From assembly GCF_017744395.1 (NCBI RefSeq), contig NZ_JAGIBI010000001.1, forward strand, positions 1,054,001 to 1,118,000: DNA of 64,000 bases. The letters run 5' to 3'. The translations under genes and the position numbers were made by a program. Positions 6,575-15,141 of the stretch are shown piece after piece; positions within the stretch are counted from its first letter, which is position 1; the number at the start of each line of letters is the position of its first letter. The stretch comes from Herbaspirillum sp. GTDB lineage: Bacteria > Pseudomonadota > Gammaproteobacteria > Burkholderiales > Burkholderiaceae_D. The notes below the pieces were generated by a model. The model saw only the letters and a list, made by a program, of their open reading frames with translations. It did not search any database and had not been told where the DNA came from.

Positions 6575-7201
6575 ATGCCGCCCATGCCCGACGCCGACGA
6601 CGCCCCGAAAACCACGCCCCTGCCGCTGTCCCTGCTCGGCCTGGTGGCCGCCTTCGCCCTGGCCCTGTGGGCCGGCATCCATTACATGACGCATGACGCC
6701 AGCCTGTTCTATGGCCTGGTGGCCGGCCTGTCGTTCGGCGCCGCCTTCGCTTTCGGCCAGCAGATCAAGAACCGCTTCGTGCCGCCGAAACAGCGCAAGA
6801 CCGACTGGAAGGTGCAGGCGCCGGGCGCGGCCGAACTGAGCCCGGCCAAACAGGCCGCCCGCCAGGCGCGCAAGATCGCCGTGGAATTCGACGACGAGGA
6901 AATCCGCACCACCGTCAACGGCCTCAAGCGCGAAGGCGTGGCCTGGAACGCGGTCAACCGGGTCGATATCGTCATCAGCGATGAATTCCTGCCGCTGCCG
7001 CAATGGATGATCGGCGGCGACGGCGCGCAAGGCGCCAAAGGCATCATCGTCCCCAACGACGCCGACGGGCTGGATGCCTTGATGGACGCCATGAAGGAGC
7101 GCCTGCCCGGCTACGACAACGACGCCACCTACCAGGCCGTCATTTCTGCCATGGCGGCGATGGAAGGCCATTTCCCGGTTTGGCAGCGCAACCCGGCTTG
7201 A
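6575..7201 (+). CDS. Conserved-looking membrane protein of unknown function
   Basis: I do not recognise the family. From the chosen start the protein has about 208 residues: a short polar N-terminus, two closely spaced hydrophobic segments (roughly residues 14-34 and 42-60), then a basic stretch (NRFVPPKQRKTDWK) and a soluble C-terminal domain containing VAWNAVNRVDIVISDEF and LPLPQWMIGG. The layout is that of a small inner-membrane protein with a cytoplasmic PH-like or beta-rich domain, but this is inference. The frame extends upstream to an ATG at 6497, and ATGs at 6575 and 6584 are both possible; none has a good ribosome binding site. Confidence 0.7.
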   Translation: MPPMPDADDAPKTTPLPLSLLGLVAAFALALWAGIHYMTHDASLFYGLVAGLSFGAAFAFGQQIKNRFVPPKQRKTDWKVQAPGAAELSPAKQAARQARKIAVEFDDEEIRTTVNGLKREGVAWNAVNRVDIVISDEFLPLPQWMIGGDGAQGAKGIIVPNDADGLDALMDAMKERLPGYDNDATYQAVISAMAAMEGHFPVWQRNPA

Positions 7202-7316
7202 ATCCTCGATACTGAACAGAAATGGGGTTCAATTGAATCGAACCGGCGATGAGCTGGTGAACGCGAAGCATTGGGATTAGCATTGGCCATCACCCAGCAC
7301 GGAGCGAAACCGATCC

Positions 7317-7715
7317 ATGATGACTCCCAGACCTTTCCTGATGTTCCAGGGCGGCGTTGCCCAGGCGGCGATGGAGTTGTACGTCGCCACCTTCCCCGAC
7401 TCCCGCATCGTGCGCGCCGAGCGTTACGTCGAAGGCGAATCCGGGCCGGCCGGCGCCATCAAGGTGGCGACCTTTAGCCTTTGCGGCCGCGAATTCATGT
7501 GTTCCGACAGCCCGATCCCGCACCATTTCACGTTCACGCCATCGAGTTCGACTTTCGTGGAATGCGACTCCGCGGAAGAGCTGGAGCGAGTGTTCGGCGT
7601 TCTCGCCGAAGGCGGGAAAGTCCATATGCCGCTGGGTGACTATGGCTTCAGCCGGCGCTTCGGTTGGGTCGATGACCGGTTCGGGGTCTCGTGGCAGTTG
7701 AATCTTGCGCACTGA
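7317..7715 (+). CDS. VOC-superfamily (PhnB-like) protein
   Basis: A 132-residue protein with the vicinal oxygen chelate fold pattern of PhnB-like proteins, often annotated as 3-demethylubiquinone-9 3-methyltransferase family: PFLMFQGGVAQAAMELYVATF at the start, FMCSDSP in the middle, and a C-terminal MPLGDYGFSRRFGWVDDRFG motif ending in VSWQLN. The last segment is very typical of the group. The true reaction is unknown and a methyltransferase role is not supported by the fold. GGAGCG about 10 bases upstream is a weak ribosome binding site. Confidence 0.85.
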   Translation: MMTPRPFLMFQGGVAQAAMELYVATFPDSRIVRAERYVEGESGPAGAIKVATFSLCGREFMCSDSPIPHHFTFTPSSSTFVECDSAEELERVFGVLAEGGKVHMPLGDYGFSRRFGWVDDRFGVSWQLNLAH

Positions 7716-7745
7716 CGGGACGGGACCTGATCGGGCGCTATCCGC

Positions 7746-7942
7746 TCAGCTTTCGCCGGCTTCCTCGTCCCACTTCCTCAGCAGCGCCAGTTTCTCGGCG
7801 ATCTTGATCTCCAGGCCCTGCGGCACCGGCTGGTACCAGCGGGGTTCCCGTATGCCCTCAGGGAGATAGGTTTCGCCGGCCGCATAGGCGTTGGGCTCAT
7901 CGTGGGCATAACGGTACTCATGCCCATAGCCGAGTTCCTTCA
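7746..7942 (-). pseudogene. rarA: 3' relic of a second (probably native) rarA
   Basis: Translation from 7942 gives about 63 residues matching the C-terminus of the complete RarA encoded at 13746-15050, starting [20 protein letters not shown] and ending at a stop. There are 8 amino-acid differences in 63 and many synonymous changes. Codons here are G+C-rich like the flanking chromosome, whereas the tail of the complete gene is more A+T-rich. The fragment therefore looks like the displaced tail of the resident gene. Similarity stops abruptly at 7942. An open frame continues to an ATG at 8048, but that part has no rarA similarity and is probably not translated. Confidence 0.85.
7927..7942. repeat. 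16-bp junction repeat, left copy
   Basis: TAGCCGAGTTCCTTCA is identical at 7927-7942 and 13927-13942, exactly 6000 bp apart. It marks the point where the relic rarA tail and the intact rarA cease to be similar, so it is a candidate crossover site. Confidence 0.7.
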
Positions 7943-8002
7943 CAGGCAACCGCGAGAAAGAGAAACTAGCAAATTCCACCTCTTCCAGGATCCAGAAATA
8001 GA

Positions 8003-8024
8003 AAAGCATCCTACGGGGTGCTTT
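8003..8024 (+). terminator. Hairpin with cUACGg tetraloop upstream of the ATPase gene
   Basis: A 9-bp stem (8003-8011 with 8016-8024, one G-U pair) closed by a C(UACG)G loop is followed by CTTCTTT on the plus strand. It lies 175 bp before the RloC-like gene and could block read-through into it from the VOC gene. A role as an attenuator is also possible. Confidence 0.5.
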
Positions 8025-8198
8025 CTTCTTTGCGCTAGTCAAATTCATATGAATTTAACTGACTTAAGGAGTTGCTACCCGGCCACCATGCCAACCTAGA
8101 TTTCCTGTATGGCAATGAGACTGGATGGGATAGACTGAGCAACAGTCTGTTGCATGTCCTATCACATATCGGGGGTTATGTATGAGGGGAGCGAACTA

Positions 8199-10625
8199 AT
8201 GATCAATCAGATCGACATTGCCAGCTTTGGCAGCTTCAATGGCCTGAACTGGAAGAAGAGCATTCGTGACGGCGGCAACAATGTTCAGGACTTCAAACGC
8301 CTGAACATCCTTTATGGGCGCAACTATTCTGGGAAAACTACTCTTTCCCGAATCTTCCGTGCGCTGGAGACGGGGCGCATCCCGCTGAACTACGTGGGAT
8401 CAACCTTCACCGTTCATGGCGACAAAGGGGATGTGACCCAAGCTGCCATTGCTGGTCATGGCTATGACGTCCGGGTCTACAACCGCGATTTCGTCAGTGA
8501 AAATCTCAGCTTCCTGATCAATCAGGCAATTGGTGGGGAAATCAAAACCTTTGCCATCGTCGGGGAGAAGAACAAGGAGATCGAGGATGAAATTGCTGCC
8601 ACCCAAGCGAAGCTCGGCAGCATTGAATCCAAGGCCGGTCTTCGGCACGATCTAGATACCAAGAAGAAGGAAAGAGATCGGACCAAGAACAATCATAAGA
8701 ATGCCTTTGATGGTCTAGAGGGCAAGCTTCGCTCTCATGCCAACGACAAGATCAAACAAAATCGCACCTACGGCCCTGCGGTGTACAACATAGAAAGCAT
8801 CAAGAAGGACATCAACGCAGTTAAGAAAGCGGGCTTCACGCCCTTGACGACTGAAGAACAAGCGACCAAGGTCAACCTCCTGAAGCAAGAGGCGCTTCCT
8901 GACATCACCGATACCGTCTCGATCAGCCTGAAGATTGATTCGATCAAGACGACGGCCCAGGAACTTCTTTCCAGATCAATCAAGCCGACACAGGCTATTC
9001 AAGAGCTATTGAACGAGACTGCCCTTCAAGCGTGGGTGAAGCAAGGCATTCCACTGCACAAGGACAAACGCGATACATGCGCCTTCTGCCGTCAGAATCT
9101 GCCCCATGACATATGGCAGGTTCTGGACTCTCACTTCAGCAAAGAGTCTTCAGATCTGGAGTCATCCATCGATTCATGTCTGACATCGGTCAACAGCGAA
9201 ATTCAGGCCATTGCTGGCTTCCTGACTTTGACCGGCGATAAGTTCTATGCCGAAGAAAAAGTCTCATTTGAAGCGAACAAGAAGTCTCTTGCCGACTGCC
9301 TGAAGGTCTACAAACAGGACTTGGAGGCACTGAAGACTGCACTGGATTCAAGGAAGAGATCTCTATTTCAGCCCGTTGCAATGCCGGCCCCCAAGCACGA
9401 TGCAGCGGCAATACAGAAGTGCGCGGACGACATCAACGATCTGATCACCAAGAGCAATGGCCGCACCAGCTCATTGGAGAAGGACAAGGACTCCGCACGT
9501 GAAGCACTGCGACTCACCGATGTGGCCTCCTTCATCGGTGACATCACCTACGATACCGAATTGACCCGCATAGCTGGCCTTAAGACGGACGCCGACACTG
9601 CCAACACGACCTATACCGACGCCGAAGCCGAGATCGTCAAGCTGGAAGCTGATGTCACCCGCCTGCAAGGCCAACAGAAGGATGAACGCAAAGGCGCGGA
9701 GCGAGTCAATTCCTTGCTCAACCACTTCTTCGGTCACGATGGCATCAAGCTTGAAGCCAAGGACAACGCGGAGAAAAGCGCCGTCAAGTTTGAAATCACG
9801 CGGGATGGCAAATCGGCCTACAACTTGAGTGAAGGCGAATGCAGCCTTATTGCCTTCTGCTACTTCATAGCCAAGCTTGAAGAGCCTGACAGCAAGGGCA
9901 AGGATCTGATCATCTACATCGACGATCCAATCTCCAGCCTGGATGGAAACCACATCTTCTTCATGTTCAGCCTGATCGAGAGCCTGATCGCCAAGCCGTT
10001 CAAAAACCTGGATGGCTCCAACGGCTATCGCTACAGTCAACTTTTCATCTCCACCCACAACCTGGACTTCTTGAAGTATCTGAAGCGGTTGTCCATCCCC
10101 AAGAAGAAGGTGCCAGCCGGGGAAGGCAAGACCAAGAGCGTGGATGACAACGAGCACTTCATGGTGGAGCGGAACGGCCCCACAAGCAACATCATGCTAA
10201 TGCCGTCCTACCTGAAGGACTACATCACTGAGTTCAACTACCTCTTCCACCAGATCTACAAGTGCAGGAACCAGGACGCCGCGCAGGGCGCACATGAGCC
10301 GTTCTATGGCTTCGGGAACAACCTTCGCAAGTTCCTAGAAGCCTTCTTGTTCTTCAAGTTCCCGTACCACGACGACAAGAACGATGCCTTTGAACGGATC
10401 AAGAAGTTCTTTGGCGATGAAGATGCAACGGCAATCGCACTGGTGAACCGGCTCAACAATGAATTTTCTCACCTTGAGTCAATCCCAGATCGCGGATTCA
10501 AGCCTGTAGAAATTCCAGAGATCGCCAAGGTGGCGAACTTCGTCTTGGACAAGATCTATGCGTCAGACCCTCATCAATACAACGCCTTGTTAAAGAGCAT
10601 TGGAGAGCCCGCGAGGACACAATAG
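8199..10625 (+). CDS. RloC/PrrC-like AAA_13 ATPase, candidate anticodon nuclease
   Basis: An 808-residue protein with a split ABC/SMC-type ATPase. It has a Walker A GRNYSGKT (40-47), a long mostly helical middle with a zinc-hook-like CAFC (C294, C297), a signature LSEGE (543-547), Walker B YIDDPISSLD (D575, D576) and a histidine switch ISTHN. The C-terminal domain carries R710-x3-E714 and H758, the spacing style of the Arg-Glu-His set of PrrC and RloC anticodon nucleases. It also fits a HEPN-type R-x6-H (RLNNEFSH, 751-758). By family knowledge such proteins sense DNA damage or phage signals and cut tRNA anticodon loops. The ATG at 8199 is chosen because GAGGGGAG lies just upstream; an in-frame ATG at 8154 has no such site. 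It faces an HNH nuclease gene, so a Septu-like pairing is an alternative. Confidence 0.75.
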   Translation: MINQIDIASFGSFNGLNWKKSIRDGGNNVQDFKRLNILYGRNYSGKTTLSRIFRALETGRIPLNYVGSTFTVHGDKGDVTQAAIAGHGYDVRVYNRDFVSENLSFLINQAIGGEIKTFAIVGEKNKEIEDEIAATQAKLGSIESKAGLRHDLDTKKKERDRTKNNHKNAFDGLEGKLRSHANDKIKQNRTYGPAVYNIESIKKDINAVKKAGFTPLTTEEQATKVNLLKQEALPDITDTVSISLKIDSIKTTAQELLSRSIKPTQAIQELLNETALQAWVKQGIPLHKDKRDTCAFCRQNLPHDIWQVLDSHFSKESSDLESSIDSCLTSVNSEIQAIAGFLTLTGDKFYAEEKVSFEANKKSLADCLKVYKQDLEALKTALDSRKRSLFQPVAMPAPKHDAAAIQKCADDINDLITKSNGRTSSLEKDKDSAREALRLTDVASFIGDITYDTELTRIAGLKTDADTANTTYTDAEAEIVKLEADVTRLQGQQKDERKGAERVNSLLNHFFGHDGIKLEAKDNAEKSAVKFEITRDGKSAYNLSEGECSLIAFCYFIAKLEEPDSKGKDLIIYIDDPISSLDGNHIFFMFSLIESLIAKPFKNLDGSNGYRYSQLFISTHNLDFLKYLKRLSIPKKKVPAGEGKTKSVDDNEHFMVERNGPTSNIMLMPSYLKDYITEFNYLFHQIYKCRNQDAAQGAHEPFYGFGNNLRKFLEAFLFFKFPYHDDKNDAFERIKKFFGDEDATAIALVNRLNNEFSHLESIPDRGFKPVEIPEIAKVANFVLDKIYASDPHQYNALLKSIGEPARTQ

Positions 10626-10627
10626 AA

Positions 10628-10648
10628 AAAGGGGCGCAAAGCCCCTTT
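10628..10648. terminator. Bidirectional intrinsic terminator
   Basis: An 8-bp perfect stem AAAGGGGC / GCCCCTTT with loop GCAAA is flanked by A and T runs, between the convergent ATPase and HNH genes. Confidence 0.8.
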
Positions 10649-10670
10649 CTTCATTTGGCACCCCTGTTGT

Positions 10671-11819
10671 TCACGAGCGGCCACTTCGGCGGCCATTTCG
10701 AACCAGATGCTCTAGAAACGGAGAAATTTTCTCCATCATGAACCCGGTGAACTCAGCCGCCTTCTCCTTGGGAATGACCTCGTTTTCTTTTATGCCAAGC
10801 TGCTTGGCAGCATGGTCAAAGCCTTCTTTAACGGATCGCTCCAAGGATCGGCTAGTGCTTCGATTCAGAATGATCGGAAGTGCATAATCCGCTGCTGCCT
10901 TGTGCTTTTCCTGATCAAACCCTTCTCCATTCATCAGCGATGAAAACTCGTCTTCGCTGATCTGTGAGTTCACCTTGACGGTAACCCGCTCACCGTCTAC
11001 CGGATCGATGGTGTAGATCTCATTTCTGAATGGGCCAGCATACCGCTCACTCAAGAGAACAACGATCCTGAAGAGCCCGAAGTATTCAATGTAAGACCAA
11101 AGCCGCTTCCTCTTCGGGTCACCATGCAAGGACACGCAATGAAAGATTCGGTCCTTGGGTCTGACTTCAACAAGATCGGAAAGATATGCGAAGCCAAACG
11201 GAATGGCTTCAGCTTCAGGATTCAGCAGGTATTCAAGAGCCTTCTCGCACTGGGCATGCGGCACACCACATTCCGATGCAAATGCAAAGGCGGTCTTGAC
11301 TAGAGATCGCCCAGCATTGGGGCCACCCAAGGAAAGGCTGACATGAAGCGGCGATTCCAGGTAGTTGGTTGTTACCTCCAACTCGCTGAGAGCCTTTTCA
11401 ACATCAAACTTCGGATACTTTCTGGCGATACCTTTCAACCGCTGCTTGGCTTCTTCAATGGTCTTGGCCGTCAGGTTGATCTTGATCTTCCCACCAAGAT
11501 CTTCTTCTGAATAAGACGATTTCTCTGGCGTGAAGGACCCATCATTGAGCAGCCAATACTTATCACCCTCGATTGTCTGCACAATCTGCTTAGGAGACTC
11601 ACCCCGTTCTCTGCTGATTCCGACAGCCAAAGAGAACCAGTTCAGTTGCTTCGCAAGATCGGCGTCCCAGTCCTCGCCCAACTTGTTGTTGCAATCGTTG
11701 CAGATGAACCCCGTGGTCTTCTTTCTGCCACCAATCGCATTGGGGATGATGTGCTCTTTTGTCTTGTTCTTGGCCGACAACGTATCAGGGCACAGCGCAC
11801 ATTTTCTAGAAGCAGTCAT
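10671..11819 (-). CDS. HNH endonuclease family protein (HNH_5-like)
   Basis: A 382-residue protein with an N-terminal zinc-bound HNH motif: CxxC (C7, C10), EHIIP (H23), AIGG, then CNDCNN (C40, C43, N44) and a conserved acidic stretch. That is the HNH_5 pattern, a metal-dependent DNA nuclease fold. The remaining 330 residues are of unknown type and may recognise the target or a partner. It is the last gene of the rarA-linked operon, starting 26 bases after the Abi_C-like gene, and converges on the RloC-like ATPase. Two-gene ATPase plus HNH systems exist (Septu), but there the genes are co-directional and the HNH protein is shorter. Confidence 0.8.
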   Translation of the reverse strand: MTASRKCALCPDTLSAKNKTKEHIIPNAIGGRKKTTGFICNDCNNKLGEDWDADLAKQLNWFSLAVGISRERGESPKQIVQTIEGDKYWLLNDGSFTPEKSSYSEEDLGGKIKINLTAKTIEEAKQRLKGIARKYPKFDVEKALSELEVTTNYLESPLHVSLSLGGPNAGRSLVKTAFAFASECGVPHAQCEKALEYLLNPEAEAIPFGFAYLSDLVEVRPKDRIFHCVSLHGDPKRKRLWSYIEYFGLFRIVVLLSERYAGPFRNEIYTIDPVDGERVTVKVNSQISEDEFSSLMNGEGFDQEKHKAAADYALPIILNRSTSRSLERSVKEGFDHAAKQLGIKENEVIPKEKAAEFTGFMMEKISPFLEHLVRNGRRSGRS

Positions 11820-11845
11820 CTTCCTCTCGCTGGGTCAGATTGACG

Positions 11846-12595
11846 TCACATGAAGTTGAGCATGAGACGACCAATGGAGTTGGTCAGGTCACGAGCAAAA
11901 AGAGCAAGCCACCTTTGAGAGTCGCCACCGAAGTGCGACTCACTGAAACCGTTCCTTGAGTTCGCAATCGCCTTGGTCAAGGTCGGCATGGCATTGACGA
12001 TCTCAACAGGAAACGGCCCTTGGGCTTGAAGCTTCTTGCTGATGTCGTCCTTCACCACTTTGCACAGCGGCATGAGGTCTGTCAGCCCAGCCTGGTCGGG
12101 AACATGCTTGCGGACATATGCCTTGTAGAGCCCTTCAAGGCACGTGTAGCTCAGTGTCGTTGCCCGGTTGTAGTGGTGGGCATCGATGGCTTGGTCAATG
12201 TCCTTGAGGCTCTTGTTCAACTTCTCCGAGTTCCAAAGATCAACAGGAACGACCGTGACAGGTACGGCCCGCCCACCGCCAAACACGAGGGCGCGAATAG
12301 CATCCACCTCATCCTTGGCATGGGGCTCAAGTTCATCGATGAACAGTCTGAACAACTGGAACCGCTGTTGCTCAGGCAGGGCAAGAATCGTGTCCCAGTA
12401 GAAGGATTTGCGAGAAGTGCTTTTGCCTTGCTGATTCCGCAGCGGTATCAACTGCTCATAGCTGGGCGAGCCAGGATCAACCTGCTGCACCATGCGCAAG
12501 AAGCTCGGTCCACTGTAGTAAGTAGGTGTCCCGTTCCTGTCTAACAGAACGAAGAGCCGGTTGTAAGCGGCTATCCAATTCACGGTTGAATTCAT
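11846..12595 (-). CDS. Abortive-infection C-terminal (Abi_C/HEPN-like) domain protein
   Basis: A 249-residue protein. The C-terminal third has the layout of the Abi_C domain: a helix with YNRATTLSYTCLEGLYKAYV, a middle helix pair, then NSRNGFSESHFGG, which contains R214-x6-H221. That Arg-x4-6-His signature is the catalytic motif of HEPN ribonucleases, so an RNA-cutting role is plausible. The N-terminal half (about 1-110) is not recognised. It is co-directional with and 17 bases from the preceding gene and 26 bases before the HNH gene. Family membership rests on motif shape only. Confidence 0.6.
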   Translation of the reverse strand: MNSTVNWIAAYNRLFVLLDRNGTPTYYSGPSFLRMVQQVDPGSPSYEQLIPLRNQQGKSTSRKSFYWDTILALPEQQRFQLFRLFIDELEPHAKDEVDAIRALVFGGGRAVPVTVVPVDLWNSEKLNKSLKDIDQAIDAHHYNRATTLSYTCLEGLYKAYVRKHVPDQAGLTDLMPLCKVVKDDISKKLQAQGPFPVEIVNAMPTLTKAIANSRNGFSESHFGGDSQRWLALFARDLTNSIGRLMLNFM

Positions 12596-12612
12596 ACTTC
12601 CCCAGATCCTGA

Positions 12613-13206
12613 TTAGGTTGAGCAGCGAGTATTTTCAGACTTCAAGATGCCGTGATAAAGCAGGAAGTCCCACTGGAGGTAGATGAACTCAGTCCCGTTC
12701 GGAAGGGTCTTGATGCCGAATTTATCTTGGTGGTAGCTGTTCTTGAAAATCCCCTTGTTATCCATGTCTTGTGCAACCGCGAACAGAGCCTCAGTCTCGA
12801 TGACGGCGCACGAGAGCAGGTTGCCACCAGCTTGATCAAGGTAGGCTTGCACCGTGAAGTGCGGGAACAGATGCCCCTTGTCCTTGTTCTGGATGGAGGT
12901 CAACCGCTTGGCAAACTCTGTTGGCTGACCTGAAGGCAGCCGGTAGCGAATGCTGAAGGTGTCATACCTGCCACCCCACTGAACACGACTGGCAAGGCCA
13001 CGCATCATTGGGATGCCTCTATCAACCTGCCATGCATCGATGCCAGCGAGTAGGTCAAGATCGTCCTTGAAGTCGGCTGTCGCCACCGCTTCAACTGGTC
13101 GCAGCATCCCACCGCCAACCAAGGGGAACTGGCTTACGACAGGCCATACAACGTTTTGAAAGTCGGCGGCACTCTGGGACAAGACCTGAAGCAACGGGTT
13201 GTTCAT
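12613..13206 (-). CDS. Unknown protein of the rarA-linked operon
   Basis: A 197-residue protein that I cannot assign. Conserved-looking patches are DLLAGIDAWQVDRG (D57), LASRVQWG (R74, Q76), YDTFSIRYRL (84-87) and PTEFAKR (E97), followed by FPHFTVQAYL. The order Asp, then R-x-Q, then a strand ending in Ile-Arg vaguely recalls PD-(D/E)XK nuclease folds, but the classical E-x-K is missing, so this is only a suggestion. It lies 14 bases after the interrupted gene and 17 before the Abi_C-like gene, so it is almost certainly in the same transcript. Confidence 0.6.
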   Translation of the reverse strand: MNNPLLQVLSQSAADFQNVVWPVVSQFPLVGGGMLRPVEAVATADFKDDLDLLAGIDAWQVDRGIPMMRGLASRVQWGGRYDTFSIRYRLPSGQPTEFAKRLTSIQNKDKGHLFPHFTVQAYLDQAGGNLLSCAVIETEALFAVAQDMDNKGIFKNSYHQDKFGIKTLPNGTEFIYLQWDFLLYHGILKSENTRCST

Positions 13207-13220
13207 CGCACGTTCTTTTT

Positions 13221-13749
13221 CTATTTGAAGTCCGAGAAGTCCAAGCTGACTATGACCTTCTCCAGACCGACCTTCTTTTGCTTCAGAAAGTCCATGAACT
13301 CCCAGGTGAATTCATAGCTCTTGGCCTTGAGGACAGTGGCAATGCGCCAGGTAGCACTTTCACTATGCTCATCTGGCTCTTGGAACCAACACAAGTCAGC
13401 CCCCATCAACAGCCGTAGTTCGCCGTCCATGTCTGGGAAGCTACAGACTCGCGTCAAGTAGTCGGCATTGATGAATTTGCTTGTCTCATGCCACTCCCCA
13501 CGATCAAGAAGGAAGGCATAGAACTGCCGTGAAATCCTCGGAAGCCCTTTCAGCTTCTTAATGAATTTCTTGAAGTCTTTTTCAACATCCTCTTCGCTGA
13601 CATCGTACGATGTTCAGGATATCTTTGACAAAATCCTCAAGGTAGCGATTCAGATCAAAGAGCTGAAGCCCTGCCCGGCTCTTGACCTGTTGGGAAACCG
13701 CCGTCAGTTCATCGATGATCTGACCAATGAAATAGCCTCTTGTAATCAT
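13221..13749 (-). pseudogene. First gene of the rarA-linked operon, interrupted by a frameshift
   Basis: The start codon overlaps the rarA stop as ATGA (13749-13746), with frame one running MITRGYFIGQIIDEL and on to FDLNRYLEDFVKDILNI. Near 13608-13616 the coding sense moves to another frame, which continues YDVSEEDVEKDFKKFIKKLK to a stop at 13221. The first frame alone ends after 55 codons. The second has no ATG before a TTG at 13457, and its total length of 529 nt is one more than a multiple of three. So a ~175-residue gene has gained one base (or lost two), or the read has an error. The first 47 residues resemble what I recall of SMEK-type domains; that assignment is weak. Confidence 0.65.
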
Positions 13750-15050
13750 TCTTTTCCAGCTTCCTCATCCCATTTTTTTAACATGGCGAGCTTCTCGCCT
13801 ATCTTGATCTCCAAGCCCCTTGGCACTGGCTGATACCAGCTAGGTTCTGCAATGCCTTCAGGCAGGTAGGTTTCACCAGCAGCGTAAGCATTGGGTTCGT
13901 CATGGGCATATCGGTATTCATGCCCGTAGCCGAGTTCCTTCATGAGCTTGGTTGGAGCATTGCGGAGATGGACAGGAACCTCACGGCTCTTGTCCTCCTT
14001 CACGAAGGCGCGAGCAGAGTTGTAGGCGTTGTAACCCGCATTGCTCTTGGCGGCGACAGCCAGATAGATCACCGCCTGGCCAAGTGCCAGTTCACCTTCA
14101 GGACTGCCGAGCCGTTCAAAGGTCAGAGCCGCGTCATTGGCGATCTGCATGGCCCTGGGGTCGGCAAGACCGATGTCCTCCCAAGCCATGCGAACAATGC
14201 GCCGTGCCAGATACCGGGGATCGGCACCGCCGTCCAACATGCGGGTCAACCAGTAGAGGGCCGCATCGGGATGCGAGCCACGAACCGACTTGTGCAAGGC
14301 TGAAATCTGGTCATAGAAGTTGTCTCCTCCCTTGTCAAAACGCCTGCTGTTCAAGGTCAGGGCGTTCTGCACAAAGTCAGCATCGATGCGAGGGACGCCA
14401 GCAGCGCCGGCAGCCGTTTGACACTGCTCCAGCAGGTTCAGGAACCGTCGTGCATCACCGTCTGCATAGCCAATGATGGTGTCCCGCGCCAGGTCATCAA
14501 ACTCCAGCCCGCCGAGCGCCTTCTCTTGGGCCCGTTGCAGCAATTGCTTCAGTTCTTCGTCCGTCAGCGACTTCAGCACATAGACCTGGGCCCGCGACAG
14601 CAACGCCGAATTCACTTCGAAGGACGGGTTCTCGGTGGTGGCGCCGATGAACGTGACCAGGCCGCTTTCCGCGTAGGGAAGCAACGCATCCTGCTGGGAC
14701 TTGTTGAACCTGTGGATTTCGTCGACAAACAGGATGGTGTGCTTGCCCATGGACAGGTTCTGCTGCGCCTGCTCCATCGCGGCCCGGATATCCTTGACGC
14801 CGGAGAACACCGCCGACAAAGCGATGAACTCGCACTTGAAGGCCGACGCCGTCAGCCGCGCCAAAGTGGTCTTGCCAACGCCGGGCGGCCCCCAGAAGAT
14901 CATCGAATGCGGCTTGCCCGACTGGAAGGCCAGCCGCAACGGCTTGCCCTCGCCCAGCAAGTGCGACTGCCCGATGACCTCGTCCAGGGTCTTGGGGCGC
15001 AGGGCTTCGGCCAGCGGCGCGGCTGGCTCCTGTGCGAACAGGTCAGACAT
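13746..15050 (-). CDS. rarA: Replication-associated recombination protein A (RarA/MgsA)
   Basis: A 434-residue AAA+ clamp-loader-like ATPase that acts at stalled replication forks. Walker A is WGPPGVGKTT, Walker B is LFVDEIHRFNKSQQDA, sensor 1 is GATTENPSFEVNSALLSRA, and the C-terminal RarA domain ends in the conserved [20 protein letters not shown] region. The start at 15050 is preferred because GGGAG lies 8 bases upstream and the protein then begins MSDLFAQEP; an earlier ATG exists at 15074. The 3' part is more A+T-rich than the 5' part. The stop overlaps the next gene by four bases, so expression of that gene is likely coupled to rarA. This copy appears to be acquired, because pieces of another rarA flank it. 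Confidence 0.95.
   Translation of the reverse strand: MSDLFAQEPAAPLAEALRPKTLDEVIGQSHLLGEGKPLRLAFQSGKPHSMIFWGPPGVGKTTLARLTASAFKCEFIALSAVFSGVKDIRAAMEQAQQNLSMGKHTILFVDEIHRFNKSQQDALLPYAESGLVTFIGATTENPSFEVNSALLSRAQVYVLKSLTDEELKQLLQRAQEKALGGLEFDDLARDTIIGYADGDARRFLNLLEQCQTAAGAAGVPRIDADFVQNALTLNSRRFDKGGDNFYDQISALHKSVRGSHPDAALYWLTRMLDGGADPRYLARRIVRMAWEDIGLADPRAMQIANDAALTFERLGSPEGELALGQAVIYLAVAAKSNAGYNAYNSARAFVKEDKSREVPVHLRNAPTKLMKELGYGHEYRYAHDEPNAYAAGETYLPEGIAEPSWYQPVPRGLEIKIGEKLAMLKKWDEEAGKE
13927..13942. repeat. 16-bp junction repeat, right copy (inside rarA)
   Basis: Identical to 7927-7942. Downstream of it (13746-13926) the intact rarA tail and the relic tail align without gaps. Upstream they are unrelated. 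Confidence 0.7.
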
Positions 15051-15141
15051 GGCTAGCTCCCGGCAAGGCCGCATGCCGCGGGCACATCATGTCGTCGAAG
15101 GATTGCGGCCGCATGCGCTCGGCCAGGGGTATCAGGTTCAT
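15043..15141 (-). pseudogene. rarA: Probable 5' relic of the native rarA
   Basis: Just upstream of the intact rarA, the minus strand encodes MNLIPLAERMRPQSFDDMM followed by CPRHAALPG and then a stop in the next few codons. PLAERxRPxxxDDxxxxxHxxxPG is the hallmark N-terminus of RarA (compare PLAEALRPKTLDEVIGQSHLL in the intact copy). About 24 residues align without gaps, 9 of them identical and most others conservative, and the expected GQ is degraded to CP. It therefore looks like the start of another rarA cut off by the acquired copy. The match is short, so chance cannot be fully excluded. Confidence 0.6.

Follow-up and report, generated by a model that had tools for sequence, protein, structure and literature searches.

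Probable remains of a rarA-inserting mobile element with a spare rarA and predicted phage-defence genes in a Herbaspirillum genome

As a rule, integrating elements insert at tRNA genes or at the ends of genes, which limits the loss caused by insertion. Among described systems, those closest to the one reported here are the dusA-targeting integrative mobilizable elements (PMC8409611), which, in the parts of that report available to us, share a tyrosine integrase, mobilization genes and a conserved protein gene as target, whose expression is repaired after insertion. The same source presents SXT in prfC and SGI1 in trmE as integrating at conserved genes that are kept usable. In helper-embedded phage-inducible chromosomal islands (PICIs), the integrase cuts the body of a gene, and the authors suggested, in the accessible portion of their text (PMC10111431), that a captured intact copy is a possible stand-in. 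Here we analyze a 64,000-nucleotide stretch of a Herbaspirillum sp. genome (assembly GCF_017744395.1, contig NZ_JAGIBI010000001.1, positions 1,054,001 to 1,118,000), referred to as the window, in which a block of predicted nuclease genes lies behind the repair gene rarA. This block is an island, absent from a genome of the same genus and with pieces of two further rarA copies at its borders. We consider it most likely to be the decayed remnant of a mobile element whose insertion site lies in the middle of rarA and which carries a complete spare rarA together with predicted phage-defence genes.

The rarA elements differ from the described systems in the treatment of their target. Unlike the dusA-targeting elements, as far as the available account goes (PMC8409611), they cut rarA in its middle and supply a whole second gene, whereas SXT and SGI1, in the same partial account, use gene ends and replace only an end. 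The PICIs target a prophage late gene, and capture of an intact copy is occasional and said to be non-essential in the text available (PMC10111431); the rarA elements, in contrast, cut a housekeeping repair gene, and in every intact one the spare copy comes first among the genes. Judged from sequence comparison, what is new is a conserved gene cut in its middle combined with a whole spare copy carried by the insertion. In the open-access literature, to the extent that its text was accessible, we found no description of rarA/mgsA as an insertion site or of whole-gene replacement by elements. A 31-kb predicted island of Ralstonia solanacearum EP1 lists RarA, restriction-modification and phage proteins (PMC5080846); the available part of that report leaves rarA unmentioned as a target or spare copy.

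The features of the block are as follows, with genomes and loci used for comparison given by our own handles (G and L numbers).

7198-15071, no strand: segment standing in place of the ordinary rarA of G020, a genome of the same genus (blastn against L046)
7756-7942, minus strand: leftover 3' end of another rarA, about 62 codons (79% identity to the 3' end of the complete rarA)
8199-10625, plus strand: AAA_13 ATPase, RloC-like (PF13166, 514.7 bits)
10671-11819, minus strand: HNH_5 nuclease gene (PF14279, 52.2 bits)
11846-12595, minus strand: HEPN-like protein, predicted RNase (R-x6-H; weak AbiJ and HEPN scores)
12613-13206, minus strand: 197-residue protein with no assigned family (family searches blank)
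13221-13604, minus strand: C-terminal part of a SMEK gene, in a frame differing from that of its start (79% identity to residues 216-345 of the SMEK protein of G423)
13582-13749, minus strand: N-terminal part of the SMEK gene, its ATG overlapping the rarA stop (PF21941, 32.4 bits; 96% identity to residues 1-48 of the SMEK protein of G423)
13746-15050, minus strand: complete spare rarA, likely element-borne (start by homology, M-S-D-L-F)
15073-15141, minus strand: leftover native rarA start, about 23 codons (alignment with the rarA starts of L044, L046 and L048; frame analysis; blastn)

The window holds one complete rarA and pieces of two others, a 3' end and a start. The two 3' ends form a direct repeat of 187 bp with 79% identity (7756-7942 and 13756-13942), and an open reading frame (ORF) at 7746-8048 that covers the leftover matches MgsA_C with 40.6 bits in a profile search. 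The native start piece retains its upstream DNA and adjoins the complete rarA, which begins at 15050. Third-position G+C of the complete gene drops from 0.9 to 0.5 toward its 3' end, and the G+C content is about 0.6-0.68 in the flanks as compared with about 0.47-0.57 in the block. The repeat, the start leftover and the fall in G+C had been overlooked in an earlier sequence-only reading of this DNA. In blastn, the match between G020 and the window runs as far as 7197 (91%) and resumes at 15072 (87%); the intervening DNA of G020 holds an ordinary rarA, pieces of which match the window copies at 75-78%. The ends of this alignment imply that 7.9 kb took the place of the native rarA save its first codons. 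The replaced segment also contains a gene of VOC type, named by eye, at 7317-7715, between the rarA 3' leftover and the flank; it has no match among 18 same-genus rarA loci.

The last 65 residues of RarA served as the query for a survey of 392 genomes of the family, of which 376 gave a match and 16 of these two matches. For 15 of the 16, the window's own genome being excluded, a full RarA search was run and the loci were then read. Elements or remnants were found in 9 of the 376 genomes, spread over six genera, with the window counted. The full search revealed native rarA in two parts flanking a complete rarA in G423, G548, G639, G703 and G740. G653 was counted on a clear native 5' part ahead of a complete rarA and a weak 33-codon 3' leftover (55%) after it; G350, G738 and the window complete the nine, G738 on a 35-codon leftover containing stop codons, with no stub. 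In G350, which belongs to a third genus, the start of a SMEK gene lies on the rarA stop, followed by an IS3-like insertion (a by-eye name) and rarA 3' leftovers. Seven double matches (G496, G503, G524, G566, G576, G615 and G636) were not counted: their second piece was far from the first or on a different contig, could not be found again, or the copies were broken or at contig ends. G576 has a second full-length RarA relative with 60% identity at C1:2044112-2045419, distant from the first copy.

Four of the elements appear intact, with spans between the native 5' and 3' parts of about 12 kb (G639), 20 kb (G548), 32 kb (G703) and 39 kb (G740). In all four, the native rarA frame breaks at the R-F-N-K codons of DEIHRFNK, a short core near CGCTTCAACAAG is present at both junctions, and the gene order starts at the left end with a complete spare rarA and finishes with a tyrosine integrase (PF00589) about 110-130 bases from the native rarA 3' half. 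Insertion at the rarA 3' end, which the 187-bp repeat of the window had suggested, was rejected, as the relatives show a cut near codon 120. Three of the integrases share 73-81% identity, while the fourth has 42-44% identity to them. The G639 integrase has a match in 29 of 328 family genomes at E 1e-10; full-length matches occur in three of the 328 (G639, G703 and G548), each beside its own split rarA, and the others are partial at 24-35%, among them one in the window's genome (27%, elsewhere on the chromosome). The G740 integrase was found by reading its element and not by this search, and G703 has a second, short integrase piece at 64%. Matches in plasmids (2256 records) and phages (19 records) were all below 60% identity and, with one record excepted, covered only part of the protein; loci L055, L076, L089 and L090 contained no relative of any of the four integrases, and scans of viral contigs for the integrase, the HEPN-like protein and SMEK returned no relatives. 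Relaxase domains are present in G548, G740 and G703; a relaxase-like protein of G639 has no Pfam match and 32% identity to the relaxase of G703. The hexamer TTGTGC, on either strand, occurs once or twice per left end and two or three times per right end within 72-136 bp, compared with 0.52 per kb over four of the element loci, and we infer that these repeats are putative integrase arm sites.

In all eight loci that have a stub (the window, G423, G350, G639, G548, G703, G740 and G653), the native stub frame remains unbroken over the left end and reaches a stop codon that starts 5 bases inside the spare rarA. The frame survives changes in length: two elements have left ends that differ by 12 and 24 bases, and in the window and G350 the stub itself carries internal deletions. 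The sequence of rarA is conserved where the stub stop falls, which leaves the frame as the sole informative feature, and since the elements share ancestry, the eight loci are not eight independent tests. The reading of the stub in frame onto the start of the spare rarA suggests translational coupling.

Taken together, we lean towards the following model. Elements of this family would land in the most conserved part of rarA, just behind Walker B, with the integrase recombining at the HRFNK codons. The spare rarA would come first and be wired by translational coupling to the broken native frame: ribosomes finishing the stub would re-initiate on the spare rarA, so that the host's own signals would continue to drive RarA production. 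The cargo genes nearest to the spare rarA would be expressed along with it, because they follow in the same direction, and expression of the cargo likely follows that of rarA. Each insertion would swap RarA for a foreign version and could thereby spread rarA alleles and phage defence between genera. In the window, the integrase, the mobilization gene and the insertion core would have been lost, the native stub shortened in frame, and SMEK crippled by a deletion.

Several observations weigh against these interpretations. The insertion core is exact (12 bp) in G740 only and has mismatches in the other three intact elements. The window has no relative of the four element integrases, no relaxase and no insertion core; lacking an integrase, it is called a remnant and not a working element, and its membership therefore rests on the site, the cargo and the rarA leftovers. 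These leftovers belong to different rarA types, the start resembling those of G009, G014 and G020 and the end being nearer the other type, which calls for more than one historical step. The C half of the window rarA is about equally near the single-copy rarA of G008 (94.0%) and that of G653 (94.0%). The rarA genes of the elements do not form one clade in the tree, where that of G548 joins its own genus (support 1.0), and we accordingly rejected a single clade. The left-end extension shows no codon-position signal (113/80/82 over five left ends of equal length), giving no sign of selection at the protein level, which was likewise rejected. Finally, the cargo of G653 looks metabolic by eye.

Some of this evidence would also fit another history, in which another species donated a rarA-linked stretch that was taken up by ordinary homologous recombination, with rarA serving only as the region of homology and with no rarA-targeting element at work in the window itself. 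The missing integrase, the two types of leftover and the 94-95% identity between the window rarA and the single-copy rarA of G008, of the same genus, are all consistent with such a history. We nevertheless regard it as unlikely, given that SMEK and the HEPN-like gene recur behind rarA in G423, flanked by native rarA pieces of another type, and that the window stub frame ends on the spare rarA as it does in the intact elements. Homologous recombination may have been the last step in the window, importing an already decayed element. G008 has a single RarA C-end match in its genome, and the genes behind its rarA differ from those of the window. Three similar ORFs lie there in a row, with smaller ORFs between them (L037, 3211-8327), and by eye they are unrelated to the window cargo.

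The C half of the window spare rarA has 90-94% identity to the spare rarA of G639, G740 and G423 and to the rarA of G653. In G423, which belongs to another genus, the complete rarA is 92% identical to that of the window and has pieces of a different native rarA on both sides. Because the tree shows no single element lineage, and because the window rarA is as near that of G008 as that of any element, rarA has probably been exchanged between elements and hosts. Two rarA types also occur at one place in the window's genus: among 18 loci fetched (L034-L051), 10 are 88-95% and 8 are 69-75% identical to the window rarA, which indicates that rarA itself has been exchanged there. In the five genomes that have both, about 10-28% of residues in the C half differ between the spare RarA and the host's own.

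The cargo of the rarA elements varies. G639 carries an Eco29kI-type enzyme and a C5 methylase; G548 carries HNH_5, AbiGi and a C5 methylase; G703 carries a C5 methylase and a partner, 96-97% identical to those of G548; and G740 carries an MmeI-type enzyme and a helicase. In G423, rarA is followed in tight order by SMEK (345 aa), a GHKL ATPase (649 aa) and a HEPN-like protein (250 aa), and then by a PIN-domain ORF. Relatives of four of the five window genes are found in other rarA elements: SMEK, the HEPN-like gene, the HNH gene (an HNH_5 relative with 46% identity lies directly behind the spare rarA in G548) and the ATPase, present as a 61-residue fragment with 79% identity in the G703 element. 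The 197-residue gene has no relative in the other rarA elements compared. SMEK and the HEPN-like gene are the sole pair of window genes shared, at two loci. Small HREDGPA-like repeat proteins also recur in the rarA elements of G639, G548 and G703 (L081, 5051-5383 and 10369-10701; L082, 5305-5613; L084, 13836-16455).

The sequence-only reading had proposed that the five genes are a single, previously undescribed defence system, linked by rarA to fork damage. Its description of the layout was accurate: the five genes, the gaps of 14, 17 and 26 bases on the minus strand and the overlap of the first gene with the rarA stop were all confirmed, and the tight one-way packing of four of the genes and this overlap are what speak for a single system. 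Its placing of defence-type genes in linkage with rarA also holds up, as G423 and G350, from two other genera, likewise have a SMEK ATG that overlaps the rarA stop. A combined system is nonetheless very unlikely. No other locus showed the full set, the SMEK gene of the window is broken, and relatives of the HNH, 197-residue and SMEK genes occur without the other window genes nearby, a finding that the reading had itself named as refuting. For HNH_5, 19 plasmid records matched, and none of the four stretches read has relatives of other window genes adjoining. The 197-residue protein was found in only one of 399 genomes of the order, the window's own; its only relative found, in Duganella lactea (85%), has none of the other window genes within 10 kb. 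A full-length SMEK in a Pantoea plasmid has none of them within 6 kb. The HEPN-like protein is present in two of the 392 family genomes, the window's own and G423 (79% identity). Given the varied cargo and these lone relatives, we view the cargo as a changing set of modules, in which the RloC-like ATPase, the HEPN-like protein and the HNH nuclease of the window, if they act, would be separate defences. A rarA-carrying mobile element accounts for the link to rarA better than a fork-damage sensor does.

The gene behind rarA, previously read as interrupted, is indeed broken (overall span 13221-13749, minus strand). It is not a plain interruption; it is a SMEK-domain gene with an internal deletion. 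SMEK_N (PF21941) matches its first piece over 39 of 140 positions. Comparison with the intact SMEK of G423 rules out a plain frameshift, since about 167 codons are missing: the window gene keeps about residues 1-48 and 216-345 of the 345-aa relative, in two frames. The G423 protein matches a SMEK/Mrr nuclease structure (PDB 26bh, E 2.8e-17) and the PADLOC Aga_REase models (142 bits), a likeness to the SMEK/Mrr nuclease domain of short prokaryotic Argonaute systems. It differs from these systems in that no Argonaute was noticed among the G423 ORFs, and most of the nuclease domain is deleted in the window. In the HEPN-like protein, earlier labelled Abi_C/HEPN-like, an R-x6-H motif is present at residue 214, whereas profile scores are weak (Pfam HEPN 13.8 bits, with a cut-off of 22; PADLOC AbiJ 15 bits, E 0.0034) and the profile search gave no Abi_C match. 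The 197-residue protein has no family match in profile searches, and its structure prediction has a mean pLDDT (predicted local distance difference test) of 31. Plasmid searches returned no relatives of the HEPN-like or the 197-residue protein. In Duganella lactea (L052, 9471-11826), the lone 197-residue gene lies between two ORFs that both hold DSRF(R)xND, resembling a short flanking repeat, which may point to how this single gene moves.

The GHKL ATPase of G423 occupies, between the same gene borders, the place held by the 197-residue gene in the window. A three-gene defence unit could accordingly consist of SMEK, a middle ATPase and the HEPN-like protein, intact in G423 and degraded in the window, which keeps the outer two with another gene between them. 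A relative of the ATPase in an Agrobacterium plasmid adjoins a HepT-like ribonuclease gene, which would suit such a unit, and another relative adjoins a Shedu nuclease gene. We hold this unit to be doubtful: the tight order of three intact genes is known from G423 as the one example, tblastn detected neither a SMEK nor a HEPN-like relative within about 5 kb of the ATPase relatives in six plasmid stretches, and the full-length SMEK of Pantoea occurs without either partner.

The convergent gene at 8199-10625 was earlier called an RloC-like ATPase, and the comparison bears this out. Profile matches start at residue 16 of a longer ORF from 8154, which makes 8199 its likely start. The 808-aa protein has Walker A at residue 40, CAFC (a zinc-hook CxxC) at 294, the ATP-binding cassette (ABC) signature LSEGE at 543 and Walker B at 571, as well as a triad R-x3-E-x43-H (R710-E714-H758) with Ser before the His. 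The published marks of RloC are ABC motifs, a zinc-hook CxxC and a triad R-x3-E-x36-52-H, often with Ser before the His, according to the accessible part of the RloC report (PMC2610378). When the last 250 residues were shuffled 2000 times, the Ser-His form of the triad arose in 26 of the shuffles and the form with His alone in 351. PADLOC files the protein under PDC-S06 (1085 bits), with PrrC far weaker (49 bits), a difference from RloC. The window ATPase is thus a predicted tRNA nuclease, as judged by these motifs. Neither it nor the HEPN-like protein had a significant match among PDB sequences. Septu, a pair of PtuA ATPase and PtuB HNH protein, was rejected: no PADLOC Septu model matched at E 0.1, no PADLOC model at all matched the HNH protein, and the ATPase and HNH genes converge. 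On this result, no known system accounts for all five genes, and the earlier reading had not recognised the combination as a named system.

The rarA elements appear to cut a conserved repair gene in its catalytic half, paying for this with a whole spare copy, and they would account for defence genes sitting behind rarA. They also caution that close packing does not by itself make nuclease genes a single system. A second rarA piece can serve as a marker for finding such islands. As the spare RarA differs from the host's own at about 10-28% of residues, insertion may also change fork repair in the host.

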